Shown here: positions 14,200 through 29,354 of the stretch, piece after piece
How positions within the stretch are numbered: the first letter of the stretch is position 1
Layout: each line of letters starts with the position of its first letter
DNA from: Rhodopirellula europaea 6C
GTDB lineage: Bacteria; Planctomycetota; Planctomycetia; Pirellulales; Pirellulaceae
DNA: 64,000 bases
Direction of reading: 5' to 3'
NCBI RefSeq assembly: GCF_000338295.1
Contig: NZ_ANMO01000216.1
Span: 62,001-126,000 of the forward strand
Notes under the pieces: model-generated
The model's input: only the letters and a program-made list of their open reading frames with translations
What the model was told of the DNA's origin: nothing
The model's database searches: none
Position numbers and translations under genes: made by a program

Positions 14200-14397
14200 C
14201 GAATATTCTATCTTGCGAGATACTGCTTGAAAAACCAAACGTTAGACTGGATCGATTGGGCGGTCACTGAATGACGATCGAGAGCTCGAAGACGAGAGAG
14301 AACTCGAGATGGCGATTCAAATTAGCATGGCTGCAATTCGTGGAAGAAACAACCAGCCCGTGATCTTACGCTTATCTTTGTCGAATCGAATGACCGT

Positions 14398-15735
14398 ATG
14401 AGCCAGGACGCCCGACTACGACCTTCTCCGATCTGCTTTTCGCAGCCACCATTGCGATCGTTCGGTCCCGCAGTCGCCGGGATGGTTCTGATTTTGGTTT
14501 TGGTCGTCGCCAACGCGTCTTCTTGGTTGGTGGGCTTGGTCAGTCTGGTTGTGATCGGATTGTTGCTGGTCTTCCGTCATTGGCACAGTTCGCAACAAGA
14601 TGATGCGGTGGCTGCCTACGTCCGCGACAGCACCGAAGAAATTCAGAAGTGGCAGGAACGACTGCGTTGTCTGCATGCGGAGACTCGGCAGAACGCTTCC
14701 GCACTGCTGCAACTCAGCGACGGTGTGATTGTGCTGACAAAGGATTTTTCGGTCTTGCTGATCAATCCTTCGGCAGTCCGGTTGCTGGGACTAAAAAAAC
14801 GGGACGCTTTGCTGGGACGTTGCTTCACCGAGTTGGTGCGTGTGCCGCAATTGTTGGCATCGATTCGTTCGGCGGTCCGAGAACAACAACCGCAGGAGTT
14901 CACTGTCGAATTGCATGACCAAGGAGTCATGCGTCCGCTGCGTGTCCGAGTGGATTTGATTGATACCGGCGAAGAACCCAATTTGCAGTTGTCGCTTCGT
15001 GATGAAACGGAAACGCGCCGCGTGGAAGATATGCGACGTGAATTCATCGCCAACGTATCGCATGAATTGAAAACGCCGTTGGCAGCCATCAAAGGCTACG
15101 CTGAAACGGTCGAGTTGGCGGTGCAGGATGATCCCGATGCGGCTCTGCACTTCATGCAACAAATCATGTCGCAATGTTTGCGGCTGGAACGATTGGTTCA
15201 CGAGATGATGCAATTGGCTCGCGCACAAGCCGGACCGGCCAATCTTCATTTGTCCAGCGTATCGTTGTCGGAAATTGTCTCAGACGCGATTCGAACCTAC
15301 GAACCGGTTGCCGCGGCGAACGGGTTGGATTTGATTCAAGAGGTCCCTTCTGGTGAAGCCAAGATCATTGCTGATCGAGAAGCCACGCTGACGATCGCCA
15401 ACAATTTGATCGGCAACGCACTGCGTTACACTCCCTCGGGAGGAGAGATACGGGTGTCGATCGTTGAGCAAACCGACCAGTGGGCTCTCGTAGTCGAGGA
15501 CACCGGCGTTGGCATTCCATACTCCGAACAACAACGTATCTTCGAACGTTTCTATCGCGGCAGTCGCAACGAAGAATCCAGCACAAGCGGCACCGGGTTG
15601 GGGCTGGCCATCGTCAAGCATTTGACTCAGGCCCAACAAGGCGACGTTTCCGTCACCAGCACGCCGGGCGAAGGATCCCGCTTCTGTGTCTGCTTGCCGG
15701 CGGTGCAAGCGTCGAAGGAACTCAACCGAGTTTGA
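14398..15735 (+). CDS. Membrane sensor histidine kinase, PhoR-like
   Basis: 445 residues. Two adjacent hydrophobic segments (~23-62) anchor the protein. A PAS-like region (~100-200, with DGVIVLTKDFSVLLINPSA) is followed by the HisKA phosphoacceptor motif FIANVSHELKTPL with His222. The ATPase domain shows an N box (GNALRY, Asn340), a G1 box (EDTGVGIP, Asp368) and a G2 box (GTGLGLAIV). The order and lack of a large periplasmic domain resemble PhoR, the phosphate-regulon kinase. No response regulator lies next to it, which is unusual for PhoR, so substrate and partner are inferred from domain layout only. It diverges from the small membrane-protein gene, leaving 198 bases for a promoter region. 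Family assignment as a histidine kinase is secure; the PhoR specificity is tentative. Confidence 0.93.
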   Translation: MSQDARLRPSPICFSQPPLRSFGPAVAGMVLILVLVVANASSWLVGLVSLVVIGLLLVFRHWHSSQQDDAVAAYVRDSTEEIQKWQERLRCLHAETRQNASALLQLSDGVIVLTKDFSVLLINPSAVRLLGLKKRDALLGRCFTELVRVPQLLASIRSAVREQQPQEFTVELHDQGVMRPLRVRVDLIDTGEEPNLQLSLRDETETRRVEDMRREFIANVSHELKTPLAAIKGYAETVELAVQDDPDAALHFMQQIMSQCLRLERLVHEMMQLARAQAGPANLHLSSVSLSEIVSDAIRTYEPVAAANGLDLIQEVPSGEAKIIADREATLTIANNLIGNALRYTPSGGEIRVSIVEQTDQWALVVEDTGVGIPYSEQQRIFERFYRGSRNEESSTSGTGLGLAIVKHLTQAQQGDVSVTSTPGEGSRFCVCLPAVQASKELNRV

Positions 15736-15919
15736 TGTGGCTGCGTCGGGATGTGGTCCTGCCTGCTCCGTCTCATCCTGTGCAAATTGGCCAGTACAGA
15801 TCGGCCAGTACGGATCGGTCACGCCAAGCAAGCGAAGAAAAGCACGCGTGGTTTAGGCGGCGGTGCCCCTCGTGATACCATGGCAGCGTTCTCGCTCATC
15901 TCCGCCATCTGACACCGCC

Positions 15920-17347
15920 ATGCTCCCGCGAAACCTGACTCTGCTGTTGTCCGTGTTGGTCATTTCATTCGCGTGTTATGCCATCTACTTGCGGACACGA
16001 TCTGCGATGATGGTCAGCGAAGCCATCGAAATGATCGATCGGTACTATGTCGAACCTGTGGATCGCCGTGAATTGCTGACATCGGCGATGGCGGGCATGA
16101 CATCGACGCTGGACCAACACAGCGAATACATTCCGCCGGTCAGCTACCAAGCCTTTCAGGACACGATCCAGCAAGAATTCGCGGGAATCGGAATCTACGT
16201 CGATCAACCGGTTGAAGGCGAACCCGTTCGCGTGATCACCCCATTGGTGGGCTCGCCTGCGCTCAGGGCCGGTCTGATGCCGGGAGACGCGATCTTGGAA
16301 GTGGACGGCGAGTACGTCGGCGACATGGACATTCGATCCGTCAGCGAACGATTGAGAGGACCGATCGCAACCACGGTGCAGTTATTGGTCGAACGTGGTG
16401 ACGAGAAACTAGAAGTGAAGGTGCAGCGGGACACCATTCAGCTGGAATCCGTGATCGGTGACTATCGAAACGAAGGCAATGAATGGGTCTACCGTTTGAA
16501 GCAGCATCCCGACATCGTCTATGTCCGGATGACCAGTTTCGGCGACAAAACGGTCAGTGAACTACGTTCGGTCTTGAGTCGTTTGATGCCGAAGTCAGAC
16601 GTGTCGGGGTTCGTGCTGGACCTTCGAGGCAACGGAGGCGGGTTGCTGACCGCTGCCGTTGATGTCTGCGATATGTTTCTGAGTTCAGGACGAATTGTCA
16701 GCACCAAGACTCGCGGCGGCGTGGTCGAAGACGAGGTGTCGGCAACGGCGGGGACTTTGGTGCCGCCCGATATGCCGGTCGCGATTTTGATCGATGAGCA
16801 TTCCGCCAGTGCGAGTGAAATTGTTGCCGCGGCACTGCAAGACCACGGTCGAGCGACGATCGTTGGTACGCGGAGTTATGGCAAAGGTACTGTTCAAAAT
16901 ATCTTGCCGCTGGAATATGGACGCAGTGCTCTGCGTCTCACGGTGGCCAAGTACTATCGTCCGAGTGACCAAAACATTCACCGTGGCGTTGATGACACCG
17001 AAGAGGACGTTTGGGGCGTGAGTCCTGATCCGGGCATGGATGCAAAAATCGCGGAAGAGGATCTGCGGCAACTGGCTCGATTCTGGGAAGAGGCTTCTTA
17101 CCCATCGCTGAAGAACCGCGATTTGAAGGACTCTCGTTTGAAGCTCGTCACGCCCGATGAAGAAGTGGATTCGGATGCCGAAGCTGAGGCTTCCTCGAAC
17201 GAGGCCACGGACTCGACAGACGAGGACGCCGCTGCCCCCGAGCGAACGCCTGCCGAATCAGCCTGGGAGTTGGACAAACCCCTGCGAACCGCGGTGGAGG
17301 CCATTCGATCGGCCAACGCTTCCAAGCAAAACGCCGCGGCCGCTTGA
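15920..17347 (+). CDS. S41-family C-terminal processing serine protease (CtpA/Prc type)
   Basis: 475 residues from the ATG at 15920; an in-frame GTG at 15863 would add 19 residues in front of the membrane anchor LLLSVLVISFACYAIYL and is less convincing. After the anchor come an N-terminal helical region, a PDZ domain (GDAILEVDGEYVGDM, about residues 75-155) that gates the active site, and the S41 core. The catalytic pair is visible: Ser297 in HSASASE and Lys322 in SYGKGTVQ, with the 25-residue spacing typical of the family. LDLRGNGGGLL is the usual oxyanion-region motif. The acidic, Ala/Glu-rich tail after the core has no recognised fold. These enzymes cleave protein C-termini in the periplasm. 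The gene follows the kinase by 184 bases on the same strand; no functional link is shown. Confidence 0.95.
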   Translation: MLPRNLTLLLSVLVISFACYAIYLRTRSAMMVSEAIEMIDRYYVEPVDRRELLTSAMAGMTSTLDQHSEYIPPVSYQAFQDTIQQEFAGIGIYVDQPVEGEPVRVITPLVGSPALRAGLMPGDAILEVDGEYVGDMDIRSVSERLRGPIATTVQLLVERGDEKLEVKVQRDTIQLESVIGDYRNEGNEWVYRLKQHPDIVYVRMTSFGDKTVSELRSVLSRLMPKSDVSGFVLDLRGNGGGLLTAAVDVCDMFLSSGRIVSTKTRGGVVEDEVSATAGTLVPPDMPVAILIDEHSASASEIVAAALQDHGRATIVGTRSYGKGTVQNILPLEYGRSALRLTVAKYYRPSDQNIHRGVDDTEEDVWGVSPDPGMDAKIAEEDLRQLARFWEEASYPSLKNRDLKDSRLKLVTPDEEVDSDAEAEASSNEATDSTDEDAAAPERTPAESAWELDKPLRTAVEAIRSANASKQNAAAA

Positions 17348-17354
17348 GTCGAAG

Positions 17355-17371
17355 GCTGGCCACTTGCCAGC
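17355..17371 (+). terminator. Possible stem-loop after the S41 protease gene
   Basis: A 6-bp perfect stem (gctggc/gccagc) with a 5-base loop lies 7 bases after the protease stop codon. The following T-run is weak (gtttct), so terminator function is uncertain. Confidence 0.35.
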
Positions 17372-17569
17372 GTTTCTATGGTTGTTCGGGGCGATTTTAA
17401 ACGGGTTTTCCAAATTGATAAGCTCCGAGATCGCTTCCGTTTGGAATGGCGGTTGTGAGTCTGGATTCCGCATTGGTAAGCTATATGGTGGTCTGAGACG
17501 GCGATCTCGTCGTGGTTTTGCACCTGTCAGGCTACCGAAAAGTCCGCTTCACTCTCATTGAGTTCACTG

Positions 17570-17950
17570 ATGAAATCGATCGTTTACGTTGTTGCTGCCT
17601 TGGCCGCCGTTGGAATCATGGTCGCGATCTCAGCGACACCCGACCGAGCACCTGAAACCGAAGCCGCACCGGCCGCCTCTGTTGTCGCGACTCCTGAGAT
17701 CATGGCCGAAGCGGGCACGATGACTTTGGAAGTGCCTGAAATGCACTGCCAATTCGCATGCTTTCCTCGTGTTCAAGAAACGTTGGAAAAGAACGGTGCG
17801 GTCAACGAAGTCGCTTTGGTCGATCAACCTGATCCAAACGCTTTGACGGTTAAGAAAGTCGTTGTGAAGTACGACGCCGGGTTTGATGTCACGTCAGCCT
17901 TGGCCGCTCTGCAAGAACAAGGGTTCTCTTCGGCCCAGAAAGTTCAGTAA
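17570..17950 (+). CDS. Exported heavy-metal-associated (HMA)-like domain protein
   Basis: 126 residues from the ATG at 17570 (an in-frame TTG sits at 17558). An N-terminal hydrophobic segment (residues ~3-22) acts as signal or anchor, followed by a Pro/Ala/Glu linker. The C-terminal ~75 residues have the beta-alpha-beta look of an HMA domain, with EMHCQFACFPRVQETL. The metal-site cysteines are Cys60 and Cys64, a CxxxC pattern instead of the usual CxxC of copper chaperones and ATPases. It probably binds a metal outside the cytoplasm, but ligand and partner are not shown. It lies just before the CbiX-like chelatase gene (26 bases), so the two may be cotranscribed. Confidence 0.8.
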   Translation: MKSIVYVVAALAAVGIMVAISATPDRAPETEAAPAASVVATPEIMAEAGTMTLEVPEMHCQFACFPRVQETLEKNGAVNEVALVDQPDPNALTVKKVVVKYDAGFDVTSALAALQEQGFSSAQKVQ

Positions 17951-17976
17951 GCAAATTCACTGAAGAAAGTGGCTCG

Positions 17977-18876
17977 ATGGAACGTTGTGCATCACCAGAA
18001 GAAGCCACTTCGATCACGCAGCCCGCTTCGGTCGGTCATCCGACCCATGGGATTTTGCTGATCGGTCATGGGACCCGTGACGAACGCGGGACCGAAGAGT
18101 TTTTCGAGTTGGGCAATCGACTGGCAAGTCTTCTCGCTGGTCGATCGATTGTTCAGCCATGTTTGCTGGAGTTTCAGTCGCCAACGATTGATGAGGGTTG
18201 GCGACGATTGCTCGACGCGGGCGCGAAGCAAATCACCGTTTCGCCACTCTTGTTGTTTGCCGCGGGGCATGCCAAGTCAGACATTCCCGACGCAGTCGAA
18301 GCGGTCGCTCGCCAGACGCAAACGCTCGACCGAATCGCGGGCTACAGCCGTCCGATTTCGCGACAGCCGCACATGATCGATTTGGTTCGCGAGCGTTTGG
18401 CTGAATCACTCGAATCGGTGTCCGTCGGCGAAATGGACAATGCCCCGATCTCGACGGCGGTGGTGATGGTCGGCCGCGGAAGCTTGGACCCATGTGCTTC
18501 ATCGGACATGCGCCTGCTCACCGAAGTCACCGTTCGCGGCCGGTTGAAACAAGCCGACTCATCTTCCATCGCGGATCGGCATGCGATCGACGCGGATGGT
18601 TTGCTCACGACGTTTTATGCGATGGCACAACCGCGGTTGCCGGACACGCTGGGACAGATTGCAGCGAGCGGTCGGTTCGGTCGAGTCATCGTCCAACCGC
18701 ACCTGTTGTTCTCGGGGCGATTGTATGATGCGATCGAGCGTCAAACCAAAGAAGCCGCAGCCAAATTCAGTGAAATTGAATTTGTCATTTCACGGTACTT
18801 GGGACCGGATGCCAAAGTCGCCGCAGCCATCGCCGATCGAATTGATTCCCTGCAATCCGAGAACGTCGGCGGTTAG
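17977..18876 (+). CDS. cbiX: CbiX-type sirohydrochlorin chelatase, two-domain form
   Basis: 299 residues covering two CbiX-like domains. The first (about 25-135) has the chelatase motifs ILLIGHGTRDERG with His31 and SPLLLFAAGHAKSD with His98, the two histidines that hold the incoming metal in this family. The second domain (about 158-290) keeps the fold signature, but both positions read Arg (VGRGSLDP and LLFSGRLYD), so only the N-terminal half should be catalytic. The enzyme family inserts cobalt or iron into sirohydrochlorin for cobalamin or siroheme synthesis. No other genes of those pathways are in the window, so the product cannot be settled. It follows the HMA-domain gene by 26 bases. 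Confidence 0.9.
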   Translation: MERCASPEEATSITQPASVGHPTHGILLIGHGTRDERGTEEFFELGNRLASLLAGRSIVQPCLLEFQSPTIDEGWRRLLDAGAKQITVSPLLLFAAGHAKSDIPDAVEAVARQTQTLDRIAGYSRPISRQPHMIDLVRERLAESLESVSVGEMDNAPISTAVVMVGRGSLDPCASSDMRLLTEVTVRGRLKQADSSSIADRHAIDADGLLTTFYAMAQPRLPDTLGQIAASGRFGRVIVQPHLLFSGRLYDAIERQTKEAAAKFSEIEFVISRYLGPDAKVAAAIADRIDSLQSENVGG

Positions 18877-18896
18877 TGCCCGAATCCTTCGGGGCA
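18877..18896. terminator. Candidate bidirectional terminator between convergent genes
   Basis: tgcccgaa pairs with ttcggggca around a three-base loop, with one bulge. It sits in the 54-base gap between two convergent stop codons. There is no clear T-run on either side. Confidence 0.4.
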
Positions 18897-18930
18897 ATTC
18901 GTCAGTCGTTGATTGTGTCGGGTTGTCTGA

Positions 18931-19482
18931 TCAATCGGGAAGCTTGCGGCGGAACTGAGGGCGTTTTGCTTTGGGCAACTCGGCTTGGTGCTCTTCTTGG
19001 AATCGACGACGCTCAACGGGAGTCGCGTAGTACATCAGGTAAGTATCGTTGTCGTCCAGGCATCGCCATTCCAAGCTCTTGCCGGGCGCGTCGACCTTCT
19101 TTTCGCACGCCGGAAGAATGTCGCGGTAGATCACTCGATACAGTTCGCGATCGGAAAGGTGATCGGTGAACGTGAGCTTGATGTTTTGGGAATGCAGTTG
19201 TTGGATCGTACGCTGCAGCTCGACCGACAGCGCCGCATCGTCCAGCGATTCTGGGGCGGGGATTTGTAGCGGTGGATTGAACCACTGAGCGATCGCAAGT
19301 GCTGGTGCCCGTTCCCAGGCCAGGATCGATGCGAGGTACTCGTTCTCCTTCTGAAGCGGCATGCTCCGCGTCGTCGGATCGTCGATGGAATCGTCTCGGT
19401 ATGGTTCCAACTCGTCTCGCAAGCGAGCGTTGGTGAGAATCAAATCCACCTCGTCGATCATCGGTTGACTCGTTTCACTCAT
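18931..19482 (-). CDS. Conserved-looking hypothetical protein
   Basis: 183 residues from the ATG at 19482 (MSETSQPMIDEVD); the frame extends upstream to 19608, but that part reads as non-coding. It is a soluble, charged protein without signal peptide or membrane segment. The middle part (residues ~55-140) carries long amphipathic helices and an aromatic patch (AIAQWFNPPLQIPAP), and the C-terminus is basic and Gln/Glu-rich (RRRFQEEHQAELPKAKR). I recognise no family and assign no function. It is convergent with the cbiX gene. Confidence 0.7.
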   Translation of the reverse strand: MSETSQPMIDEVDLILTNARLRDELEPYRDDSIDDPTTRSMPLQKENEYLASILAWERAPALAIAQWFNPPLQIPAPESLDDAALSVELQRTIQQLHSQNIKLTFTDHLSDRELYRVIYRDILPACEKKVDAPGKSLEWRCLDDNDTYLMYYATPVERRRFQEEHQAELPKAKRPQFRRKLPD

Positions 19483-19933
19483 GTCCTGATACCCTTCGTC
19501 CTCTAGCAAAATCGCGTGACCGGGGCCCGTACCCCGCACTCCGTTTAATTCGCGTCGACGCGACTTGCGGCGACACTCCCAAGCTATCCAGGCCGGCTCG
19601 CCGCTCAATCTAGAATTGAGTCAAAACGGCGAACTCGCCAGATTTTTGCACGCTCGCGTGTGTCTTGATCGATACGAACGTCACGATTTACCACGTTTCA
19701 CGCTTGGACAAGTGATCTTCGAGGCATGTGAGGTTCCACCTTCTTCGCTGGGGCAACCCATGTCTCTGCCCGTCGCCATCGATTCTCGCGACTCTGCAGC
19801 AACGGCCAGCCATGGCAAAACGCCGCCGATCGCGACGCCGAATGACACTGCACTCAACCTTCTTCAGGCTGAGCTGTATTCCAAAGACACATTCGGTTGA
19901 CTTCCTGCGATCGGCAACAGTCGCTTGCCAAGC

Positions 19934-20020
19934 GAAGTTGCGGGGGAAGTCGAGCGATGCCGTTCAGGCGTACGCGAGGGGCCGGCGTGAGAAACGGTTC
20001 GCACTCCCCCTCCCGCTGCG
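19934..20020 (+). repeat. Dispersed intergenic repeat, copy A
   Basis: The core at 19955-19980 (gatgccgttcaggcgtacgc inside it) recurs in inverted orientation at 27334-27359 with one mismatch in 26 bases, and weaker similarity extends on both sides. The two copies flank the recombinase and cassette array. Confidence 0.8.
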
Positions 20021-20059
20021 GCTTGTCGATCGAGTCACCAACGCGGTTTCAACGCATGT

Positions 20060-20285
20060 AGGATGGGCACTCTTGCCGTTTTATACCCCACATCTCGAAA
20101 CACCAAAGATTAGTGTCCAATTAGAGTGGATTAGTGTTCCGCCAGAGCGGTCAAGGGAACACTAATCTCCGCTGATCGAACACTAATGGTTCTTGGACAA
20201 GGGATGTTTGGCTTCGAACCGCTTGTATTCCCAACGCAAGCCGCTCCCAAAAGATGTGGGGTACAAAAAGGCACTCTTGCCCGTC
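20060..20285. repeat. Palindromic MITE-like element
   Basis: Outer imperfect inverted repeats of about 33 bases (20060-20095 and 20253-20285, gatgtggggta...cactcttgccc type) enclose an inner inverted repeat (gattagtgttcc / ggaacactaatc) and further copies of attagtgt and acactaat. No open frame of interest lies inside. It resembles a non-autonomous mobile element. Confidence 0.65.
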
Positions 20286-20653
20286 CAAGTTACGGATGTC
20301 GGCCAAGAGTGGCCAACCGACAGCAAGATGGACTCGCCCGCCACCAACGTGCGAGGTTCGCAAGACGTCACTAACACAGCACTTCAACGCTGCACAACCT
20401 CTGCTCCGGGAGGGGCGTCCCGCTTCGGGCCGGGAGTGCGGGCATGGGATCGAACGTCTCACCCGACCCTCAATCACGTTCTAGTCGTCAGAAATCTGTT
20501 GTCGATTCAGCAACGGATCTGGCCTTTGAAGACTGTCCGGCCATTCGTTGTTCCGAAAACAGGGCTGGATCGAGATGAATTCGCATTGTTTGTCACGCTT
20601 GGCTCGCTGAACGTTTTCGAAACGTGTCTTCGCCCTGTTAGTTGGAGCAGCCC

Positions 20654-22000
20654 ATGTCTCGTCTTGTCGCACCGGATGCACCCCGTCTCTATACCAATGG
20701 CCAACCCTGGCGCGACGCCCGCGGCCGAGACGCCCCGCGACACGCCGTGGAGACGGAATTCAAAGCGGAGCATGCCGTCGTCGACCTGTCGACTCAGCCG
20801 CCCAAGCCGTTGGTTGTTAAATGTCTGGTCCGCGAGTTGCGGATCCGATTTTACTCCGTCAACACCATCAAAAACTATCGCTCCGCTTGGGTCTGCTTCC
20901 TTCGCTGGTACCGAGGACCGCTGGACCAGATCGACCAAGAGGACATTCGGGACTACTTGGAACTGCTGGTCAATGGCGGCGCGTCGGCGTCGGAGTTCAG
21001 CGTCACTTTGTCGGCACTGCGAACCGGCCTGGACAAATTCTGTTTGTTGCGTTGCACGGTTGGACTGGTGTCCCCGCGAAAGTCAAAGCAATTGCCAGTC
21101 GTGATGTCCAAGAAAGAGGTCCAGCGAATGATGGAGGCCGCTCGCACGTTGCGTGACAAGTTGCTTCTCACCGTGCTGTATGCAACCGGTTTGCGAGTCT
21201 TGGAGGTCGCCCGTTTGCAGTGGTCGGACTTTGATTTCGATCGCCAACAAATTCGGGTTCAACTTGGCAAAGGCAAAAAGGATCGCTACGTCATGTTGGC
21301 CGACGATTTGTTGCCGCTGATGCGGCAGTTGTGGCGGCGCACCCAAGGAGTTGGCTACCTATTTCCTTCCGAAGACGGGCGTGTTGGCCGGCATCTTTCT
21401 CCGCGGACGATCCAACGTGCGGTCAAGCAGGCTCGGATTCTGTCGGGAATTGGCAAGGCGGTCACGCCGCACAGTTTCCGCCACAGCTTTGCGACGCACT
21501 TGATCGAATCCGGCACCGACATTCGGTTCATCCAAAAGTTGCTTGGGCACACCAATCTGGAAACCACCTCGCTGTACACCAAGGTCGCACAGATGAAAGC
21601 GACGGCGGTCGCCAGTCCACTGGATCGGTTGGGGAACGAACCTGGTTCGTCGTCGGGTTCTTCCGGTCGGCAACCGAAACCTCGGCCCTCCGTGGGTCGG
21701 ATGCGGCTCGAGGTGGATCCGAATCCCGATCCAAACGGCGCGTATGCGGTGACGTTGGGCGTTTGGCAAGAAGGTCAATTGCTTCCGTTGCCGGGAATGC
21801 GAGCGACGATGCCACGCCGAGATTGGGTTTCCTTGCAAATCCCACTGCAAGACATCTGGGAACCGACGCTGCGTTGCCTCCCCGCGGAACAACGTGAGCG
21901 ATTGGAGTCGCCCGAGTTCTTCTCGCAGGTGCAGCGAGAGGTTGCCAAGCGAATCCTGCGAATCAGGGACGCAGAACATTCTCAGGCGATCAAGACCTAA
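20654..22000 (+). CDS. Tyrosine recombinase, probable integrase of the adjacent cassette array
   Basis: 448 residues from the ATG at 20654; an in-frame TTG lies 12 bases earlier. The SAM-like N-terminal domain (~60-150) is followed by the catalytic domain with all signature residues: Arg181 in TGLRVLEVARL, His273 and Arg276 in HSFRHSFATHL, a second His in LLGHTNLETT, and the nucleophile Tyr308 in SLYTKV. The run ending SPLDRL resembles the end of integron integrases. The ~16-20-residue insertion that marks IntI before the HxxR box is not visible: the chain passes directly from GYLFPSEDG to the helix before VTPHSFRH. Instead there is a Ser/Gly linker and a C-terminal extension of ~110 residues with no recognised fold. 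It reads toward the array, with the first cassette boundary 263 bases after its stop. Confidence 0.93.
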   Translation: MSRLVAPDAPRLYTNGQPWRDARGRDAPRHAVETEFKAEHAVVDLSTQPPKPLVVKCLVRELRIRFYSVNTIKNYRSAWVCFLRWYRGPLDQIDQEDIRDYLELLVNGGASASEFSVTLSALRTGLDKFCLLRCTVGLVSPRKSKQLPVVMSKKEVQRMMEAARTLRDKLLLTVLYATGLRVLEVARLQWSDFDFDRQQIRVQLGKGKKDRYVMLADDLLPLMRQLWRRTQGVGYLFPSEDGRVGRHLSPRTIQRAVKQARILSGIGKAVTPHSFRHSFATHLIESGTDIRFIQKLLGHTNLETTSLYTKVAQMKATAVASPLDRLGNEPGSSSGSSGRQPKPRPSVGRMRLEVDPNPDPNGAYAVTLGVWQEGQLLPLPGMRATMPRRDWVSLQIPLQDIWEPTLRCLPAEQRERLESPEFFSQVQREVAKRILRIRDAEHSQAIKT

Positions 22001-22239
22001 GCCATTCGCAGATGCGAGTTGGATTCTCCCCCCGCAGGACGTTGGTCTTGTCTGCCAGCGGGGAAGGTGTGTTTGCAACCTGAATTCAGGGTGAAAAACA
22101 CCGTCGTTTGCACCCGTGCCTCGGAACCAGCAAACGCAACCCCGCGTCACGGAACCCTCGCCCGGTCGCCCAATTGCTGCAGACCGAGCCCCCTTCAGCT
22201 AAAATCAACACCCGTTCTCCCCCATTTCCAAGCATGTAC

Positions 22240-22269
22240 GACACCCTGTCGTCCAGAACCCCGTTGTGT
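22240..22269 (+). other. Candidate attI site
   Basis: The heptamer gttgtgt at 22263-22269, continuing as gttgtgtgcc, is the exact reverse complement of ggcacacaac at the left edge of the first attC (22659-22668). Start-end complementarity of this kind is a hallmark of integron cassettes, so crossover between g and tt at 22263/22264 marks the left end of cassette 1. The preceding gtcgtccagaacccc loosely resembles the gtcgtaaaaaccttcc that precedes the same heptamer in the attC sites. Confidence 0.65.
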
Positions 22270-22272
22270 GCC

Positions 22273-22659
22273 ATGGTCACTAACTTTGCCATCGCGTTTG
22301 TGGTCGCTGTCGCCATCGTCATTCTGTGGGGCTGGCTCGGAGACTGGTCCCAGAGTCGCTTGCGGCGCGACGATGACGCTTACTGGACGTCTCACACGTT
22401 GAAATGTCCGCACTGCGACGCGCCGTACCCACCAACTGCATACACCACCCGATGGATAACGTGTTCTGAATCTCCCACCAATGGTGCTTCGATCACATGC
22501 CCGTCTTGTACGGAAATCGCCTCTTTTGATCGTACGGATGACAAGCCAGTGTTCGTTTCTCTTGCGAATCGACCGCGTGAATGCGCCAACTGCGGTGAAC
22601 GCTTCAATGGGAAACCGGATTCCGCGTGTCCGGTTTGCAACGTCGCTCGTAGCGCGTAG
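22273..22659 (+). CDS. Cassette 1: membrane-anchored zinc-ribbon protein
   Basis: 128 residues. The ATG at 22273 lies nine bases after the predicted crossover, the very short leader typical of cassette genes; a longer in-frame start at 22108 would cross the attI candidate and is rejected. One N-terminal membrane helix (AIAFVVAVAIVILWGWLG) precedes a cytoplasmic-looking domain with four CxxC pairs (CPHC, CPSC, CANC, CPVC), likely two zinc ribbons. The stop lies two bases before the R'' box of attC1. The function is unknown; it resembles cassette 4 in joining membrane helices to a zinc ribbon. Confidence 0.8.
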   Translation: MVTNFAIAFVVAVAIVILWGWLGDWSQSRLRRDDDAYWTSHTLKCPHCDAPYPPTAYTTRWITCSESPTNGASITCPSCTEIASFDRTDDKPVFVSLANRPRECANCGERFNGKPDSACPVCNVARSA

Positions 22660-22661
22660 GC

Positions 22662-22868
22662 ACACAACATGGTTTTTACGCTAGGCCGCTCTCCATTGGA
22701 GACTCGTTCGGCCATGAACGTCAATCGCTTCGGTGACGTTTTACTACGATGGAGACAGCGGCACACCCTCGCTCTTTGTTCAAACGGCGATCCTTTGGTA
22801 CGATGGCTGGTAATTCGACGCTGGTTCGCTTCGTTCGGGGTGGGTGTCGTAAAAACCTTCCGTTGTGT
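22662..22868 (+). repeat. attC-like site 1 (long form)
   Basis: R'' acacaac at 22662, L'' gtttttacg at 22672, L' cgtaaaaac at 22848 and R' gttgtgt at 22862. At 207 bases it is ~70 longer than its neighbours because of extra sequence after the first arm (about 22687-22760). Confidence 0.8.
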
Positions 22869-22878
22869 GACGCAATCT

Positions 22879-23361
22879 ATGAGCAATGGAGACCGCAACA
22901 TCACGTGGTTGCCTCCGTTGTTCACGAACGCTGGCGGTGCCGACGTCGTCGTTGGTGTCGACGCTGGCTACGATTGGGTCACGCAATACCATACAGTCGT
23001 TTCGCTCTCCGGTGATGGCTTGCCGCCTTCGATGCTCCCGCTCGTCCAACCGGGTTACGGTGGCGATTATCCCACTGCCCGCGACCTGATCACCTCCCGA
23101 CTCGAAACCGCTGGTCTTCCATCTTCGCTTGTCGATACGTTCCCATTCTTCGCGGTGGTTGACCTCGCTTTCCGATCGTCTGGCTTTTGGGCCATCAATG
23201 CTGCCGCGTGGCTCCCGCACTTTGACTTCGACGAATCGTTTGCCAATGTCCTGCTACAATTCACACTCAACAAACAACATTCGCAATCAGATCGGCATTT
23301 GGTTGCCCAACATCTTCACAAATGGGAAACGGATCGGGGCATTACGCTATTGAGACCGTAA
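22879..23361 (+). CDS. Cassette 2: hypothetical protein
   Basis: 160 residues from the ATG at 22879, 16 bases after the cassette crossover. The frame is open further upstream, but only through the attC1 repeat, so that part is not coding. The protein is soluble with no signal peptide. It has a Gly/Val/Asp-rich N-terminal part (GGADVVVGVDAGYDWVTQYH) and an aromatic C-terminal half with two acidic-hydrophobic segments (AAWLPHFDFDESFANVLLQF). I recognise no family. Intact frame and position between two attC sites make it a real cassette gene. Confidence 0.75.
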   Translation: MSNGDRNITWLPPLFTNAGGADVVVGVDAGYDWVTQYHTVVSLSGDGLPPSMLPLVQPGYGGDYPTARDLITSRLETAGLPSSLVDTFPFFAVVDLAFRSSGFWAINAAAWLPHFDFDESFANVLLQFTLNKQHSQSDRHLVAQHLHKWETDRGITLLRP

Positions 23362-23376
23362 ACGCACTTCAGCGTC

Positions 23377-23512
23377 ACCTAACATGGTTTTTACGCTAGG
23401 CCTGCGGCACACCTTCGTCCTTTGGCAACGATCGCTGGCCTTGGTACAATCTCTCGTAGTTCAGACATCGTTCGCTTCGTTTAGGGCGGTGTCATAAAAC
23501 CTTCCGTTGGGC
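23377..23512 (+). repeat. attC-like site 2 (consensus core boxes)
   Basis: R'' acctaac (23377) and R' gttgggc (23506) both fit the integron consensus RYYYAAC/GTTRRRY without mismatch. The 136-base site shares the central sequence (gctaggcc, cacaccttcgt, ctttggcaacg, cgcttcgtt) with the other copies. Confidence 0.88.
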
Positions 23513-23537
23513 GGCACCGCTCGAAAGGTAACTCTCA

Positions 23538-23735
23538 ATGACACTTGAAGATCTCGAAAAGACCATTTCACATCTGCCACCAGAGGAACTCGCGAAGTTC
23601 CGCGAATGGTTCTTGGACTTTGACGCTGCGCAATTTGACAAACGCATCGAGATCGACGCAAAAGATGGACGTCTCGATTCTCTTGCTGACGCTGCGTTGC
23701 GCGATCACTCGGCGGGCAACTCGACGCAGTTATGA
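23538..23735 (+). CDS. Cassette 3: antitoxin of a RelE/ParE-like toxin pair
   Basis: 65 residues, start 31 bases after the crossover. Small, acidic and helical, with LPPEELAKFREWFLDFDAAQFD followed by a basic-acidic segment and GRLDSLADAAL; this pattern is familiar from small antitoxins encoded before RelE/ParE-fold toxins. The stop overlaps the next gene's ATG (ATGA at 23732-23735), the usual coupling of antitoxin and toxin. It should bind and neutralise the product of the next gene and may repress the shared promoter. Identification rests on size, pairing and pattern. Confidence 0.8.
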   Translation: MTLEDLEKTISHLPPEELAKFREWFLDFDAAQFDKRIEIDAKDGRLDSLADAALRDHSAGNSTQL

Positions 23736-23989
23736 ATCACCACGCAAGCCCGTCGTTCTGGGAATGCTACAAGCAACTGCCCGAAGCAATACGGAAGTTG
23801 GCCGATAAGAATTTCGCACTGCTCAGAACTGACCCAACGCACCCGTCACTACATTTCAAAAAAGTGGGGCGATTTCGATCTGCGCGTGTCGGCAGATACT
23901 ACCGTGCATTGGCCGTTGAATCCGATGATGGATTGCTGTGGTTCTGGATTGGCAATCATGCGGAATACGAACGCTTGATCGGCGCGTAG
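23732..23989 (+). CDS. Cassette 3: RelE/ParE-superfamily toxin
   Basis: 85 residues. The sequence has the RelE/ParE-fold layout: helices with SFWECYKQLPEAIRKLADKNF, then HPSLHFKKVGRFRSARVGRYYRALAV and a final strand with LWFWIGNHAEYERLIG. This subfamily occurs widely beside short antitoxins of the type encoded just upstream. The expected activity is growth inhibition, by mRNA cleavage or gyrase poisoning; which one cannot be told. It is the only toxin in the array with an intact frame. The stop is 6 bases before the R'' box of attC3. Toxin-antitoxin cassettes are known to stabilise large integron arrays. Confidence 0.85.
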   Translation: MNHHASPSFWECYKQLPEAIRKLADKNFALLRTDPTHPSLHFKKVGRFRSARVGRYYRALAVESDDGLLWFWIGNHAEYERLIGA

Positions 23990-23994
23990 GTGCC

Positions 23995-24134
23995 GCCCAA
24001 CATGGTTATTACGCTGAGGCTTTTCGGGCACACCTTGGTTCTTTGGCAACGGGCCTTGGCCTTAGTACAATTTCCTGTAGTTCATGCATCGCTCGCTTCG
24101 TTCAGGGCGGTGTCGTAAAAACCTTCCGTTGTGC
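23995..24134 (+). repeat. attC-like site 3
   Basis: R'' gcccaac at 23995 fits consensus; R' gttgtgc at 24128. The 13-base ggtgccgcccaac here is an exact complement of the cassette 3 start at 23506. Confidence 0.87.
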
Positions 24135-24153
24135 GACCTACCGCGAGGGCCTC

Positions 24154-24471
24154 ATGGGACAACCTCTCTGGCTCGGCCTCCTAAATGTCTCGGTCATGCC
24201 AACATTTATCGGTACATCGCTGCTGTTCTACGTGGCGCAGCGCTTCGACTGGTGGTTCGGTTACACAATCTTGCTCTTCGTACCGTTCTGGGTGCTCGGC
24301 TTCTTCGTTTGGAATTTCGGCGCTGGGTTGCTGATCGACCGACTGTTGTCAAATCGCCCCAGTGCGGCGGTTGGCCCTCCTTGTCCCCACTGCACAAAAC
24401 CTCTCGCATCAAAATACGCACAGCAATGCCTTCACTGCGGTGCTGACTGGCACAATTCACGTACTGCGTAG
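24154..24471 (+). CDS. Cassette 4: membrane protein with C-terminal zinc ribbon
   Basis: 105 residues from the ATG at 24154, 25 bases after the crossover; the longer open frame upstream (from 23938) runs through the attC repeat and is not coding. Two membrane helices (GLLNVSVMPTFIGTSLLFYV and ILLFVPFWVLGFFVW) come first, followed by a zinc ribbon with CPHC and CLHC pairs and an HNSRTA end. It is the mirror image in plan of cassette 1. No known family; function unknown. Confidence 0.78.
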   Translation: MGQPLWLGLLNVSVMPTFIGTSLLFYVAQRFDWWFGYTILLFVPFWVLGFFVWNFGAGLLIDRLLSNRPSAAVGPPCPHCTKPLASKYAQQCLHCGADWHNSRTA

Positions 24472-24481
24472 GTTGCCGGTC

Positions 24482-24618
24482 GCACAACATGGTTTTTACG
24501 CTAGGCCTCCGGCACACCTTCCTTGGTTGGTCACGCGGGCTGGCATTGGTACAATCTTCCGTAGTTTGAACATCGCTCGCTTCGTTCAGGGCGTTGTCGT
24601 AAAAACCTTCCGTTGTGT
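24482..24618 (+). repeat. attC-like site 4
   Basis: R'' gcacaac at 24482, R' gttgtgt at 24612. The flank ggtcgcacaac is an exact 11-base complement of the cassette 4 start at 24128. Confidence 0.87.
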
Positions 24619-24622
24619 GACC

Positions 24623-24908
24623 CTATAGCGAACGGATGTCGCGGTCTCCGGCGAATACGCGCGCGACTTCGATACCGTTCTTGATTGGCCTGAAGAATTA
24701 TGACGTAGCGACCAACAACACTGCTACGAATCTCGGCACCGAACTCTGGCCGCCGCTCTCCAAATTCCGGAGTTGCGGCTATTAGCTTGCACTTCTCTTC
24801 AATCTTTTCGACCCAATTTGCCGCGGAGATGGGTTTATCGCGTGCGATATAATCGTAGATGTCCGACAAATCCTGCTGGGCGGACGGCGCGATTATCAAT
24901 CTTGCCAT
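24623..24908 (-). pseudogene. parE: Cassette 5: ParE-type toxin broken by a frameshift
   Basis: The ParE fold is clear at the start (MARLIIAPSAQQDLSDIYDY, then ANWVEKIEEKC and RPEFGAEIRSSVVGRYVI). After RYVI the frame goes wrong; shifting by one base restores the normal end RPIKNGIEVARVFAGDRDIRSL with a stop at 24623-24625. The simplest explanation is one extra T near 24698-24699 on the plus strand. Without the shift the frame runs on through the attC4 repeat to 24531, which is not a plausible protein. The gene lies opposite to the array direction and overlaps the parD stop by one base. Sequencing error is the main alternative. Confidence 0.82.
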
Positions 24909-25150
24909 TACTCGGCGGACTCCATCGCAATTCTTGCGCGATCTCGCAACTGCGCGAACACCACCTCACCGTCGATTCCCTGGCCGGCGTCTAGTTCATC
25001 AATTCCCTTTTGTACTTCCGCACGCAACTGTTGTTGGCTTTTCAACAATTGCACGCCCGCCGCAACGGCCGCTTCAGCTGACTCGAACTGTCCTGACGCT
25101 ACCAATCCCCTTACGAATTGCATCGCATCGGGGCTGAGCTGTACATTCAT
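24908..25150 (-). CDS. parD: Cassette 5: ParD-type antitoxin
   Basis: 80 residues from the ATG at 25150 (a Met four codons earlier is also possible). The N-terminal part looks like the ribbon-helix-helix DNA-binding region of ParD (MNVQLSPDAMQFVRGLVASG, then FESAEAAVAAGVQLL), and the C-terminal tail, rich in Gln/Glu/Asp with GIDELDAGQGIDGE, is the toxin-wrapping segment. It precedes the damaged parE on the reverse strand, with TAATG overlap. It should still be able to bind DNA and any ParE homologue. Being reverse-oriented, it needs its own promoter within the cassette, between 25150 and attC5. Confidence 0.88.
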   Translation of the reverse strand: MNVQLSPDAMQFVRGLVASGQFESAEAAVAAGVQLLKSQQQLRAEVQKGIDELDAGQGIDGEVVFAQLRDRARIAMESAE

Positions 25151-25178
25151 GGAGACCTCCAACCGGGGCTACCGGGTC

Positions 25179-25317
25179 ACACAACATGAGTTTTTCGCTA
25201 AGGCCCTGCGGGCACACCTTCGATGTGGTGCAGGCCTAGCTCCCATTATACAATCAAATCTTGTTAAGGACATCTGCGCGTTGATAGTGGCGGTGTCGTA
25301 AAAAACTTCCGTTGTCA
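25179..25317 (+). repeat. attC-like site 5 (variant centre)
   Basis: R'' acacaac at 25179, R' gttgtca at 25311. The flank gggtcacacaac is an exact 12-base complement of the cassette 5 start. The central part (ccattatacaatcaaatc) differs from sites 2-4 and 6 but is shared with site 7. Confidence 0.85.
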
Positions 25318-25333
25318 GACGCTAGTCGATCAT

Positions 25334-25729
25334 TTGGCCAACCCGTATCAATCTCCATCCACCAGCGTCGAGCCCAAATTGCTGCGATCTGTTGCACCGC
25401 GCTGGTTTGCTTCGGCAATAGCAACGTCTGCAGTTGGTGCTGCAATCTGGACGTTTGCAACGGCAGCATACGACGCCAGTGAAGAACCATTTGTTGGCAA
25501 CTTTGACGTAGTCGACTGGCTTGTAATGTTCGTTGGTGGTGGTCTTGGCGTTCTGTTCTGGTTCGGATGGGCCTGCGCGATTATGTGGGCCGTGGTCCGC
25601 CGATGGTGGTCCGTCTCAATGATTTTCCTTCTGCTCATTGCAATTCCCATTGGCTATTTACATAGCTGGTGCTTAACTGGCTACCTTGGAGACCGGCGGG
25701 CAGCGATTGAGATGCAGGCTCAGCCCTAG
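25334..25729 (+). CDS. Cassette 6: NPYQSP-type small membrane protein
   Basis: 131 residues from a TTG at 25334, 22 bases after the crossover. The protein opens with MANPYQSPS, the short NPYxSP signature that precedes membrane segments in many planctomycete proteins of unknown role. Three membrane helices follow (around AIATSAVGAAIWTFATAA, WLVMFVGGGLGVLFWFGWAC and MIFLLLIAIPIGYLHSW). The frame is intact and ends 11 bases before attC6. The motif suggests the cassette was made from a planctomycete gene and not imported from a distant phylum; this is inference. Confidence 0.78.
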   Translation: MANPYQSPSTSVEPKLLRSVAPRWFASAIATSAVGAAIWTFATAAYDASEEPFVGNFDVVDWLVMFVGGGLGVLFWFGWACAIMWAVVRRWWSVSMIFLLLIAIPIGYLHSWCLTGYLGDRRAAIEMQAQP

Positions 25730-25740
25730 TGGATCGCGTC

Positions 25741-25877
25741 TGACAACATGGTTTTTACGCTAGGCCTTCGGCGCACCTTCGTTCTTTGGCAACGGGCGGT
25801 GGCATTGGTACAGTTTCCCGTAGTTCAGACATTGTTTGCTTCGTTTAGGGCGGTGTCGTAAAAAACTTCCGTTCTGT
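25741..25877 (+). repeat. attC-like site 6
   Basis: R'' tgacaac at 25741, R' gttctgt at 25871. The flank gcgtctgacaac is an exact 12-base complement of the cassette 6 start. The R' box departs from the others (gttc instead of gttg). Confidence 0.84.
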
Positions 25878-25881
25878 GACC

Positions 25882-26166
25882 TTAGATTTTTGGTTCGTCA
25901 AAATCCCCTCGAATAACTCGGACGATCTCAAGGAATCCTTCGACGCGGCAAAAGAAAATCACGTAGCTGCCAACGTACGTGGATCGAATCTCGTTGCCAA
26001 GTTCCGGACGCGCATCGCCGACATCGGGATCCTTGGCCAACAAACAACACTTCTCGCGAAGCTTTTGAACCAATTGACGGGCCGCGACTGGTTTATCGCG
26101 GGCAATGAATCGAGCGATCTACTTGAGGTCTTCTTTCGATTCCGCAGAATAGCGAAGTCTCGGCAT
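25882..26166 (-). pseudogene. parE: Cassette 7: ParE-type toxin with premature stop
   Basis: From the ATG at 26166 the frame reads MPRLRYSAESKEDLK, then a TAG codon (cta on the plus strand, 26119-26121), then continues in the same frame as IARFIARDKPVAARQLVQKL and on through LGNEIRSTYVGSYVIFF to a natural stop at 25882. Both sides of the stop match the ParE pattern, so this is a single nonsense mutation at codon 16. Restarting at the downstream Met (MVQKL, 26073) would give a 63-residue protein missing the first helices. It is the second broken ParE in the array. Confidence 0.82.
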
Positions 26167-26420
26167 GTTCTCATGCTTCCTTGATGTTCGGCTTCTACGT
26201 TGTCAATTTCCGCGTTGATCTCGTCAAACACGGTTTCTTCGTCGTAGAATTTACCCGCATCCAATTGCTGAACGCCTTTTTGAATCTCGCTTCGCAATTG
26301 CTCACGCCCCATCAGCAACCTGACACCTTCAACGATGGCATCTTCTTCAGAATTGAATCTTCCTTGGGAAACAAGACCTTTCACGAAATCATTGACTTCG
26401 CTTGGTAGGTTCAGATTCAT
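25959..26420 (-). CDS. parD: Cassette 7: ParD-type antitoxin with aberrant C-terminal extension
   Basis: Start ATG at 26420. The first ~82 residues are ParD-like: MNLNLPSEVNDFVKGLVSQG, FNSEEDAIVEGVRLLM, then QLDAGKFYDEETVFDEINAE, closely similar to the cassette 5 antitoxin. Beyond EAEHQGS the frame fails to stop and runs for about 70 more codons through the parE gene in a shadow frame, ending at 25959. One base away in frame there is a TGA eight bases before the parE ATG, where the normal stop would be expected. A small indel near the 3' end of parD is the likely cause. The DNA-binding half should be unaffected. Confidence 0.7.
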   Translation of the reverse strand: MNLNLPSEVNDFVKGLVSQGRFNSEEDAIVEGVRLLMGREQLRSEIQKGVQQLDAGKFYDEETVFDEINAEIDNVEAEHQGSMRTCRDFAILRNRKKTSSRSLDSLPAINQSRPVNWFKSFARSVVCWPRIPMSAMRVRNLATRFDPRTLAAT

Positions 26421-26443
26421 AGCTTCACTCCAGTGCGCCGGGA

Positions 26444-26583
26444 GTATAACATGGTGTTTACGCATAGGACCTGCGGGCATACCGTCGATGTAGTGCTGAC
26501 CTCGCTTCCATTATAAAATCAAATCCACTTCAGGGCATCGCTCGCTTCGTTTAGGGCGGCATCGTAGAAACCTTCCGTTGTGC
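26444..26583 (+). repeat. attC-like site 7 (variant centre)
   Basis: R'' gtataac at 26444, R' gttgtgc at 26577. The centre matches site 5 (ccattataaaatcaaatc). The left flank is not complementary to the cassette 7 start at 25871, unlike cassettes 1 and 3-6. Confidence 0.8.
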
Positions 26584-26594
26584 GACGCAGGTCA

Positions 26595-27012
26595 ATGTTC
26601 TCCGAGGCCGATTTCCAAACCGCCGCCCATGGGATTTGCCACGGACCTGACCTCGAGTGGTTCGCCGTAGATGACCGCGACCAAATCGGAGCGTTCTGCA
26701 ACGCCGGATTCGCGTGCGTCTCTGTTCCCGTATGTGCACCGTTCGATCTGTACGTTCGCATGCTGGACGCGATCGACGCACTTACCGTTGCCTGTAGGGC
26801 AACTTGGTACTGCACGCAACCACCGATTCACGATAGGTGGGACAATTGGTCTCCGCGCGGACTATTTGGTTTCGACTGGGAGCATGCAATTGGGCGACCG
26901 GCCCTTCGCTGCCCTGTCGTCTCATGACCCGCCCAACGACGTGACCGAGTACTTCAGTTCCAACCGACTCAAAATTGCCGACTTCTATTCCGAGTCAAAA
27001 ATCATATTCTGA
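26595..27012 (+). pseudogene. Cassette 8: hypothetical protein, frameshifted
   Basis: From the ATG at 26595, 17 bases after the crossover, the frame encodes MFSEADFQTAAHG, then LEWFAVDDRDQIGAF, LFGFDWEHAIGRP, and stops at 26925. A one-base shift between about 26893 and 26912 gives a coherent end: SSHDPPNDVTEYFSSNRL, then KIADFYSESKIIF, with stop at 27010-27012. The two halves together look like a single protein of ~138 residues of a type often seen as small orphan or immunity-like proteins, but I cannot name the family. The stop is 21 bases before attC8. Confidence 0.7.
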
Positions 27013-27033
27013 CCGTGTTGCCACTTCAGGGTC

Positions 27034-27151
27034 ATACAACATGGTGTTTATGCTAGGCCTTCGGTGCACCTTCCGTGGTTGGAAGCGTAAGCTGGATTTG
27101 ATTTCACTGGTCGTGTTTCAGGCATCGCGAGGTTTGTTTGCATTGTTGTCT
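27034..27151 (+). repeat. attC-like site 8, degenerate right half
   Basis: The left half is normal (R'' atacaac at 27034, then atggtgtttatgctaggcct). Similarity fades after tcaggcatcgcgag near 27131, and the L' box is missing. gttgtct at 27145 may be what remains of R'. This is the distal end of the array. Confidence 0.65.
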
Positions 27152-27299
27152 TGAGGCCGTTACAGCGTGAGGCCGGCTGGTTTCCTCTCTCGTCCACGCT
27201 TCTTGAGGAGAGCTGTAGGCGATCATCCTGCCTCAATAGCCCAACGAGCAATTTGAAGTCGGAAATGGCAATCTATGAAATATTGCGGTAGGGAGTGAG

Positions 27300-27400
27300 G
27301 GCAGCACACGCCACTTCCCATGCCCGGCCCTCACCCTCGCGTACGCCTGAACGGCGTCGCTTGACCTCTCCCCAAACTTCGTTTCGGGAGAGGTGCGCCA
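27300..27400 (-). repeat. Dispersed intergenic repeat, copy B
   Basis: Inverted copy of the element at 19934-20020; the 26-base core lies at 27334-27359. It closes the far side of the recombinase-cassette block. Confidence 0.8.
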
Positions 27401-27535
27401 TGTGAAAATCTGCCGAAAGACGGTATCGGAAAGCTGCACGACCTCAAGCGAGGCGAGTCAGCACAGTTCAAACGGAAGCTAGCGCAAGCGGATAGGGTCC
27501 ATAACACTGAACACCTTGCAGGCAGGCCTATCGGA

Positions 27536-27643
27536 CTGTTGATTTAATAGGCGGTACCGCGTTGGCGGCGGTTGGTCAAACGCCAACCGGGGCGAACGCC
27601 CATCGGCTAATTGTTGTCATTCTGTATATGGCTAAATCAACAG
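27536..27643. repeat. Short inverted repeat, possible insertion-element remnant
   Basis: ctgttgattta at 27536-27546 and its exact complement taaatcaacag at 27633-27643 bracket 86 bases without a gene. Confidence 0.4.
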
Positions 27644-28301
27644 CCCGCTGCTCCGGCGCGGTCAACACTCGGATTGTTGATGCCGTTTTAGAGACTGACA
27701 TGCTAAGCAAGTCGGCAAGATTCTTTCGGCATTTGAACTGTTTTGGCAAACGCCACTGGTCCCACGTAAAACCGGGGCTGACACCCAAACGGCTTACATG
27801 GTTGTGCCCGATCATTCCTGCCGACCTGCTCAACCGTGTGTACATTGACGAACATGTGAGAAAGGCGAGTTCGCTGAGCCAGATGATGTTGCACGGTTCC
27901 TGGTGGCGTTGTTGGTAGATGCGACCGACGAGCTGATCGGGGCGAGCTGATCGGGTCAAGGGAAGTTTTTGATTCCAACGATGCGATTGATCGTTTGGAG
28001 GTATTGCGGCACGTTGGGAAGTAGCCTTGGATTCTGGGTGAGGTCTTGGCCCTTTTTCAGGAGGGACAGTACGAGCATTGGGTGCGTCACGTAGCTTGGA
28101 TTGTTGCAGAGTTGTTTGTCTCGGTTGCGGGGGCGATCGCGAAGAGTGGATGTGGTGTCGAGGCGTCAGTTCGCGTCCTGACTCGACTCGAGTTGATGTT
28201 CTGCGATCGGTGTGGCTCGCTACAATGAGTTGGGCTTCGCACCGGGGCCAGTTTGGCGGGCTATCACTTACACACTGATTCACGCATCCAAGGAATCCGC
28301 T

Positions 28302-29321: not shown

Positions 29322-29354
29322 TCGGTGGACATGGGATAAGAATGGGCCCAATTC

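Follow-up and report, generated by a model that had tools for sequence, protein, structure and literature searches.

The window analysed here, a 64,000-nt stretch of Rhodopirellula europaea 6C (contig NZ_ANMO01000216.1, positions 62,001–126,000), carries a gene for a tyrosine recombinase that lacks the I2 insertion of integron integrases (IntI), followed by an attI-like site and an array of small cassettes delimited by attC-type repeats (Table 1). Three ParE-type toxin units are found in the window cassettes, and sedentary integrons likewise carry toxin-type cassettes. Short repeats common to other array loci lie upstream of the gene (20074–20286) and past the array end (27315–27940), and a lone match of the attC scan at 60045–60260, far from the array, was taken as chance.

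Table 1. Features of the recombinase gene and the adjoining cassette array (window coordinates).
Feature	Position	Strand	Remarks
Tyrosine recombinase without I2, 448 aa	20654..22000	+	ATG start
SAM-like core-binding domain, residues 59–123	20828..21022	+	Pfam PF13495
Catalytic domain, residues 150–312, complete R-K-H-R-H-Y set	21101..21589	+	Pfam PF00589, invariant residues
SPLDRL motif, residues 321–326	21614..21631	+	common to non-IntI recombinases
C-terminal domain, residues 350–447, four strands then helices	21701..21994	+	AlphaFold models; no Pfam match, no significant Foldseek match
attI-like site CGACA-CCC-TGTCG-N11-GTT, 3′ of recombinase	22239..22265	+	in 11/11 copies, divergence beyond
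Inferred crossover, at or just after G^TT	22263/22264		attI-like site
attC1, long, 199 nt	22666..22864	+	
attC2, L′ box altered	23381..23508	+	repeat family; absent from the 73-site set
attC3	23999..24130	+	
attC4, exact L box, spacers 3 and 5	24486..24614	+	
attC5	25183..25313	+	
attC6	25745..25873	+	
attC7	26448..26579	+	
attC8, degenerate, right end not recognisable	27031..27177	+	repeat D1, 62%
Cassette 1, small protein	22264..22862	+	sub-threshold rubredoxin-like match
Cassette 2, protein without Pfam match	22863..23506	+	
Cassette 3, small ORF and ParE-like toxin	23507..24128	+	
Cassette 4, protein without Pfam match	24129..24612	+	
Cassette 5, ParE toxin and small partner ORF	24613..25311	-	minus-strand genes
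Cassette 6, protein without Pfam match	25312..25871	+	
Cassette 7, ParE toxin and partner ORF	25872..26577	-	minus-strand genes; relatives in three other arrays
Cassette 8, degenerate attC	26578..27177	+	

Residues R181, K206, H273, R276, H299 and Y308 of the recombinase were invariant in alignments A2 and A3. At the SPLDRL end P322 was invariant, and S321 and D324 almost so, over 44 rows, 37 of them from outside the family. The resemblance to IntI that an earlier note on this DNA had seen in the catalytic boxes and this ending thus stands in part: the catalytic set is full and SPLDRL is present, but the motif is widespread outside the family and not specific to IntI. That note had also judged the enzyme to be unlike canonical IntI, with no insertion visible before the HxxR box, and here residue spacing, profile search and phylogeny (below) all agree with it. 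The K box and HxxR are 68 residues apart, as against 107 in all 11 measurable canonical IntIs (12 examined), 66–73 in the nine measurable rows of the I2-less family (of ten, the pattern not matching in L097) and 63–74 in the remaining measurable recombinases. The IntI profile TIGR02249 gave 202.5 bits in two stretches (cut-off 265), leaving unmatched model positions about 180–228, which we take to be the location of I2; the positive controls, IntI1 and a same-genus canonical IntI, each matched in one stretch at 508.7 and 477.5 bits respectively. All seven I2-less members scanned, the window recombinase included, were split in two and below cut-off, the relative L184 also scoring below it. Because two recombinases from outside the family reached 218.6 and 210.8 bits, again in two stretches, the score of 202.5 bits is not in itself evidence of IntI likeness. 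The best NCBIfam match of the window recombinase was the equivalog NF040815 (tyrosine recombinase/integron integrase), at 219.1 against a cut-off of 220 that L184 reaches (222.2), while XerC, XerD and XerA_Arch matched below their cut-offs, the first two by a wide margin. Among solved structures 4a8e and 5hxy ranked first, with IntI 2a3v practically tied.

Close copies of the gene were sought in 60 genomes, including that of the window. Near-full-length orthologues (84–98% identity) occur in five further genomes of the genus, and the gene is multi-copy: G000 (the window's own assembly), G002 and G004 each hold three whole or partial copies, and G005 holds two, one of which carries a stop. After setting aside two of the 13 close-copy rows that stop at contig ends (C43, C202), the same attC family, a roughly 130–200-nt repeat, was found downstream in 11 of 11 close copies from six genomes (84–100% identity, window included). 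Six distant members (L054, L055, L056, L097, L098, L184) also lie beside this attC family; where identity is 39–45% (G006, G001, G012) the gene is divergent from the array, the layout usual in integrons. Rubripirellula obstinata has the arrangement of the window and a Pirellulaceae MAG the classical one, and in G364, which belongs to a different family within the class, the 59%-identical L184 has an attI-like site behind it and one such attC at a greater distance. No such attC was present in the 10–19 kb around five recombinases matching only the core (L058–L062), nor on the contigs of the full-length members L095 and L096, the latter contig stopping soon after the gene; the family was likewise not detected by fragments L185–L187, in a scan that also missed the IS-split site of L184, or by the contig-end fragment L057. 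Three N-terminally truncated copies from two genomes (L050, L051, L052) share a start near residue 157 (window 21124); their reading frame is still open, and DNA identity is about 92%.

An association also shows within genomes. In G002, a single contig, 31 of 32 motif sites lie at most 13 kb from one of the three recombinase copies, and in G004 10 of 17 lie at most 18 kb from its three; clusters without a family recombinase account for seven of the 17 in G004 and for all seven in G010. G025 (at three places), G018, G036, G005:C4 and G009:C15 carry remnants of the C-terminal domain close to attC sites or motifs. The ten of 13 same-genus genomes that have this domain hold 8–65 motif sites each, and the three without it 1 (G007), 0 (G008) and 7 (G010). 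Among four extra genomes chosen for a motif hit, the domain is present in G018, G025 and G036, with seven domain matches against one motif site in the last, and absent from G027; in the phylum at large, three of 392 genomes sampled have it (the window's own, G364 and G323). As judged by these comparisons, the link between one recombinase family and one family of cassette sites across many genomes is well supported.

The attI-like site marks the edge of what the copies share. Ten other close copies align with the window over the gene and some 265 bp past it, and in all ten the homology stops at 22265–22270, within 5 nt of the G^TT of the conserved site, and CGACA-NNN-TGTCG-N(about 11)-GTT stands at the boundary in 11 of 11 copies. 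The R″ of the first cassette matched the post-attI sequence at 6 or more of nine positions in 15 of 16 arrays, and at all nine in eight, in a comparison made with no shuffle control; the exception, L048, has 2.9 kb ahead of the first recognised site.

Within the arrays, R″ is the reverse complement of the start of its own cassette at 7 or more of eight positions in 43 of 59 adjacent cassettes, a set of pairs that includes some skipping an unrecognised site such as attC2 of the window. Partner shuffles (2000) gave a mean of 4.5 and never more than 12, and R″ matched the start of the next cassette in only 9 of 73 cases. Such mirroring follows integron-cassette logic, and it is the best sign in these data that R″ and R′ may pair. 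Across 68 well-matching pairs the mismatches numbered 4, 8 and 3 at positions 4, 5 and 6 (counted from the G of GTT) and 1, 0 and 2 at positions 7, 8 and 9 (15 versus 3 in total), a cluster that mutation could explain but that may equally hint at exchange running a few bases past GTT as in ordinary overlap-type tyrosine recombination. The spacers are 3 nt on the left and 5 nt on the right. In 36 of 53 sites the two L boxes are 9-mers that complement each other exactly, and in nearly all sites found the best match had no extra base; the scan misses L boxes altered by point changes, and extrahelical bases may occur in other parts of the site, so that it is for L boxes as scanned that the family lacks the extrahelical L-box base of IntI-type integrons. 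A conserved L″ copy lies roughly 100–190 nt to the left of L′, and a short hairpin just after it folds in 55 of 64 short sites.

In the circular-cassette form the 53 sites folded with means of −27.4 and −26.6 kcal/mol for the two strands, compared to −16.7 kcal/mol for letter-shuffled sequences. The bottom strand was the more stable in 19 of 53 and neither was clearly favoured; since both strands fold well, stability does not explain strand choice. RNAalifold on the attC alignment (59 of 64 short sites, five removed by hand) returned 14 pairs with no double change or compensatory pair. Because R″ and R′ of one array site come from different cassettes, covariation was tested against the start of the cassette to which R″ belongs. 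Some sites are cut or split beside mobile-element genes. In L052 an IS91-type transposase and a tyrosine recombinase (10026–11938, minus strand) lie just ahead of an attC cut at CACTTG/AAC; this junction recurs in L044 (two), L048 and L050, so the element may target attC sites. In L184 an insert with an IS110-family transposase gene (6993–8174) splits an attC near the AAC/ATGG point, and a second attC-like repeat of another build, with AAC-ATCTGTATGTCG on the minus strand, is found at 6195–6478 and 8784–9067.

Seventeen related pairs were identified among 125 cassettes. In the 11 pairs examined first, nine of them in different arrays or contigs and two inside one array, the bodies were 81–100% identical and the flanks 45–60% (random flank median, 49%); one related pair (92%) joins G004 and a different genus. 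In two pairs of fully identical cassettes (one within L043, one of L050 with L051) identity runs through the cassette's own attC and stops at GTT, in L043 two bases past it. The own attC was more alike than the preceding attC in 13 of the 17 pairs (means 82 versus 66%), and the attCs of shared cassettes were often no closer than random pairs (67–100%; random median 73%). L043 holds three copies of one cassette (6312–6439, 7845–7972 and 8840–8967 in reverse-strand coordinates) with identical gene parts, two having the same attC and the third a patchy difference in the right half of its attC. Between the window (12726–29747) and L046 of G004, which represent the same chromosomal locus with flanks 88–89% identical, the matches listed in between, the gene apart, are attC-sized or short distal ones and include no common cassette bodies. 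On this evidence cassettes appear to move between arrays, related ones being present in different arrays and species with differing flanks.

Linkage, the attI boundary, own-cassette complementarity and cassette sharing, each documented by comparison of loci, point in one direction: cassette recombination without I2 is the best reading of the locus, and with good though not full confidence we regard its recombinase as the cognate integrase of an integron-like cassette platform, exchanging attI and attC at G^TT. The mismatch pattern at positions 4–6 slightly reduces support for this explanation. Also telling against it are the canonical IntIs of the genus, site clusters that lack a family recombinase and family members that lack sites, the excess of C-terminal-domain matches over motif sites in G036, the lack of compensatory pairs and of a favoured strand, the often random-level likeness of attCs in shared cassettes, and the faster evolution of the C-terminal domain. 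Catalysis by this enzyme, use of single strands and recognition by something other than I2 are what we infer beyond the comparisons. The recombinase would insert circular cassettes at or just after the G^TT of the attI-like site, which sits 3′ of the gene here and 5′ in some relatives, and would excise them at the same point of the attC. The attC would probably be used as a folded single-strand hairpin, R″ being paired to the R′ of the same cassette and L″ to L′, and the site could be recognised through the C-terminal domain, the 3/5 spacer asymmetry or the conserved mini-hairpin after L″.

A reading that differs from this one only in the form of the site, namely Xer-fashion recombination of double-stranded DNA through a common TGTCG-N(11–12)-G^TT half-site, has some purchase on the data, and we hold it to be unlikely but worth serious attention. 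The attI and the right end of attC do have this half-site in common, top and bottom strands fold equally well, mismatches between R″ and cassette start cluster in the bases right after GTT, and the enzyme, itself without I2, has XerA and Xer types as its nearest models and structures (IntI 2a3v being practically tied among the structures). Recombination of that kind, however, would not need R″ to mirror the variable start of its own cassette, as it does in 43 of 59, nor does it account for the conserved distant L″ copy.

The canonical IntIs of the same genomes must be weighed as well, since one of them might move the cassettes in trans with the linked enzyme a passenger. Canonical IntI is present in 12 of 13 same-genus genomes, and the window's own assembly has a 5′-truncated canonical intI (L009, contig C225, 255–845 and 1138–1221) adjoining one canonical-type attC. 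The best support for action in trans comes from G004, whose canonical intI is some 48 kb away from two of the attC sites described here, and from G010, which has canonical IntIs and seven sites and, at the thresholds used, no I2-less member. Against this, the C225 attC is built differently, with 6/6 spacers and the extra L-box base, which stands after GTT, and apart from one weak half-site the present attC family is absent from all ten canonical neighbourhoods examined (of 18 loci above cut-off, with up to about 8 kb per side and about 1 kb at contig ends). Further, G012 has the I2-less system and no canonical IntI at 1e-40, and G007 and G008 have canonical IntIs but only 1 and 0 motif sites. 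Near the canonical IntIs a strict-R-box scan for classical attC gave 0 sites; looser scans gave the C225 site and one possible site in L084, and one of them alone a 37-nt palindrome in L082, against 0 in shuffled controls. We therefore consider movement in trans improbable. The earlier note had named a true intI elsewhere in the genome, acting on these sites, as what would tell against its view that cassette recognition evolved another way. In form such a gene exists on C225, but the attC it adjoins is of the other build; the view itself is favoured by an enzyme that is not IntI and whose family lies beside the same cassette sites in many genomes.

Descent was examined in a tree of 70 of 73 sequences collected (L037, a fragment, L023, with an internal stop, and L044, a near-copy of the window, were dropped), from an alignment stripped of columns filled in fewer than 30% of rows, which should exclude I2 (12 of 70 rows). 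The I2-less family (nine rows) and IntI (12 rows) formed separate clades with 100/99 support each; in this tree the family lies outside IntI and is not a degenerate IntI. Forcing the two together costs 2.4 log units (p-AU 0.40), and the family may be the sister of IntI, as a relic from before I2 or the product of an early loss. Recent loss of I2 from a true IntI now in decay, a claim about descent compatible with the other readings, would draw on this p-AU value, on TIGR02249 matching both halves and on the copies that are truncated or carry a stop. Its probability is nevertheless small, given the separate clades, the lack of I2 in all nine measurable members, the added domain kept under constraint and the spread of the family over at least two families of the class. 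Chance adjacency of an unrelated Xer- or IS-type recombinase, to which the NF040815 match and the abundance of recombinases in these genomes might lend colour, is rejected as wholly implausible because the linkage recurs at many loci, in both orientations and across several genera.

The C-terminal extension, in which the earlier note had recognised no fold, comprises about 122 aa beyond SPLDRL, and our searches likewise gave no significant match. Pfam found no domain in residues 326–448 of the window recombinase and, at cut-off, none in the C-terminal domains of seven members scanned; Foldseek returned nothing at E 0.001 in PDB and BFVD. AlphaFold on the full protein (44-row alignment; mean pLDDT 86.9), the structure prediction that note had suggested, nonetheless yielded a confident domain at residues 350–447, four strands and then helices, behind a low-confidence linker, and the domain was predicted again when modelled alone (seven sequences; mean pLDDT 85). 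Its topology might suggest a PC4/PUR-like β4-α fold of the ssDNA-binding type; in a weak structural comparison with VIA the best score (Z 5.2) went to immunity proteins, and PC4/PUR was not among the matches listed. In three same-genus comparisons dN/dS was 0.17–0.30 for this domain and 0.10–0.13 for the catalytic domain: it is under purifying selection, weaker than that on the catalytic domain, and evolves faster. As dN/dS of the short linker is similar (0.27–0.30), the constraint is only moderate. Kept with the family and moderately constrained, the extension is a candidate only for the part that recognises the site.

The platform has much in common with IntI integrons (TIGR02249; IntI1, VchIntIA 2A3V), including an attI adjoining the integrase gene, an array of small cassettes, among them toxin–antitoxin ones, and attCs of R″-L″-L′-R′ form with complementary R and L boxes that join at the G^TT of a GTT core. 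It departs from them in having no I2, in lying outside the IntI clade, in the extra C-terminal domain, in 3/5 attC spacers with no extra base in the L box and, in the window's clade, in the position of attI 3′ of the gene. In Treponema integrons (PMC3607928), cassette genes point the same way as the integrase gene, as here; those were reported as intI integrons, whereas I2-less relatives show both orientations with one attC family. Xer recombinases (XerC, XerD, XerA) share the distance from K box to HxxR and include the top-ranked structures 4a8e and 5hxy; unlike them, the present enzyme has a long C-terminal domain, is multi-copy, is tied to cassette arrays and scores below the XerC and XerD cut-offs. 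The Pseudomonas elements in rulB termed integron-like also have an XerD-like recombinase, but the part of their description cited here mentions no cassette array of this kind (PMC4542609).

The platform thus appears to work like an integron while lacking the defining feature of IntI. The sections cited of PMC7790495 describe I2 as necessary for cassette capture and found in no other protein, and IntegronFinder requires an IntI-specific profile, the I2 feature being what defines IntI (PMC9668308). Current tools would probably file these arrays as CALIN, clusters of attC without integrase, from which they differ in that a likely cognate recombinase adjoins the array. The attC of planctomycetes has been modelled (PMC8352920), and R. 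baltica figures among integron carriers (PMC3108266), so the attC sites, or a canonical IntI there, may already be known. Searches of open PMC text, judged mostly from titles listed, turned up no paper recognisable as a description of an I2-less cassette integrase.

How the platform arose bears on what it means. We give about an even chance to a second, independent origin of integron-type capture, in which an Xer-like lineage outside IntI came to use folded sites without I2, the extrahelical L-box base of attC having been lost or never present, and a new C-terminal domain or asymmetric spacers serving in site reading and second-strand control. If this is a living system, cassettes can be recombined as single strands in more than one way, or else a double-strand mode of older date has survived, and with a living cassette system without I2 the origin of integrons becomes testable with natural enzymes. 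Surveys demanding an IntI-specific profile would overlook platforms of this type or enter their arrays as integrase-less, and a second way of capturing cassettes may have arisen in bacteria.
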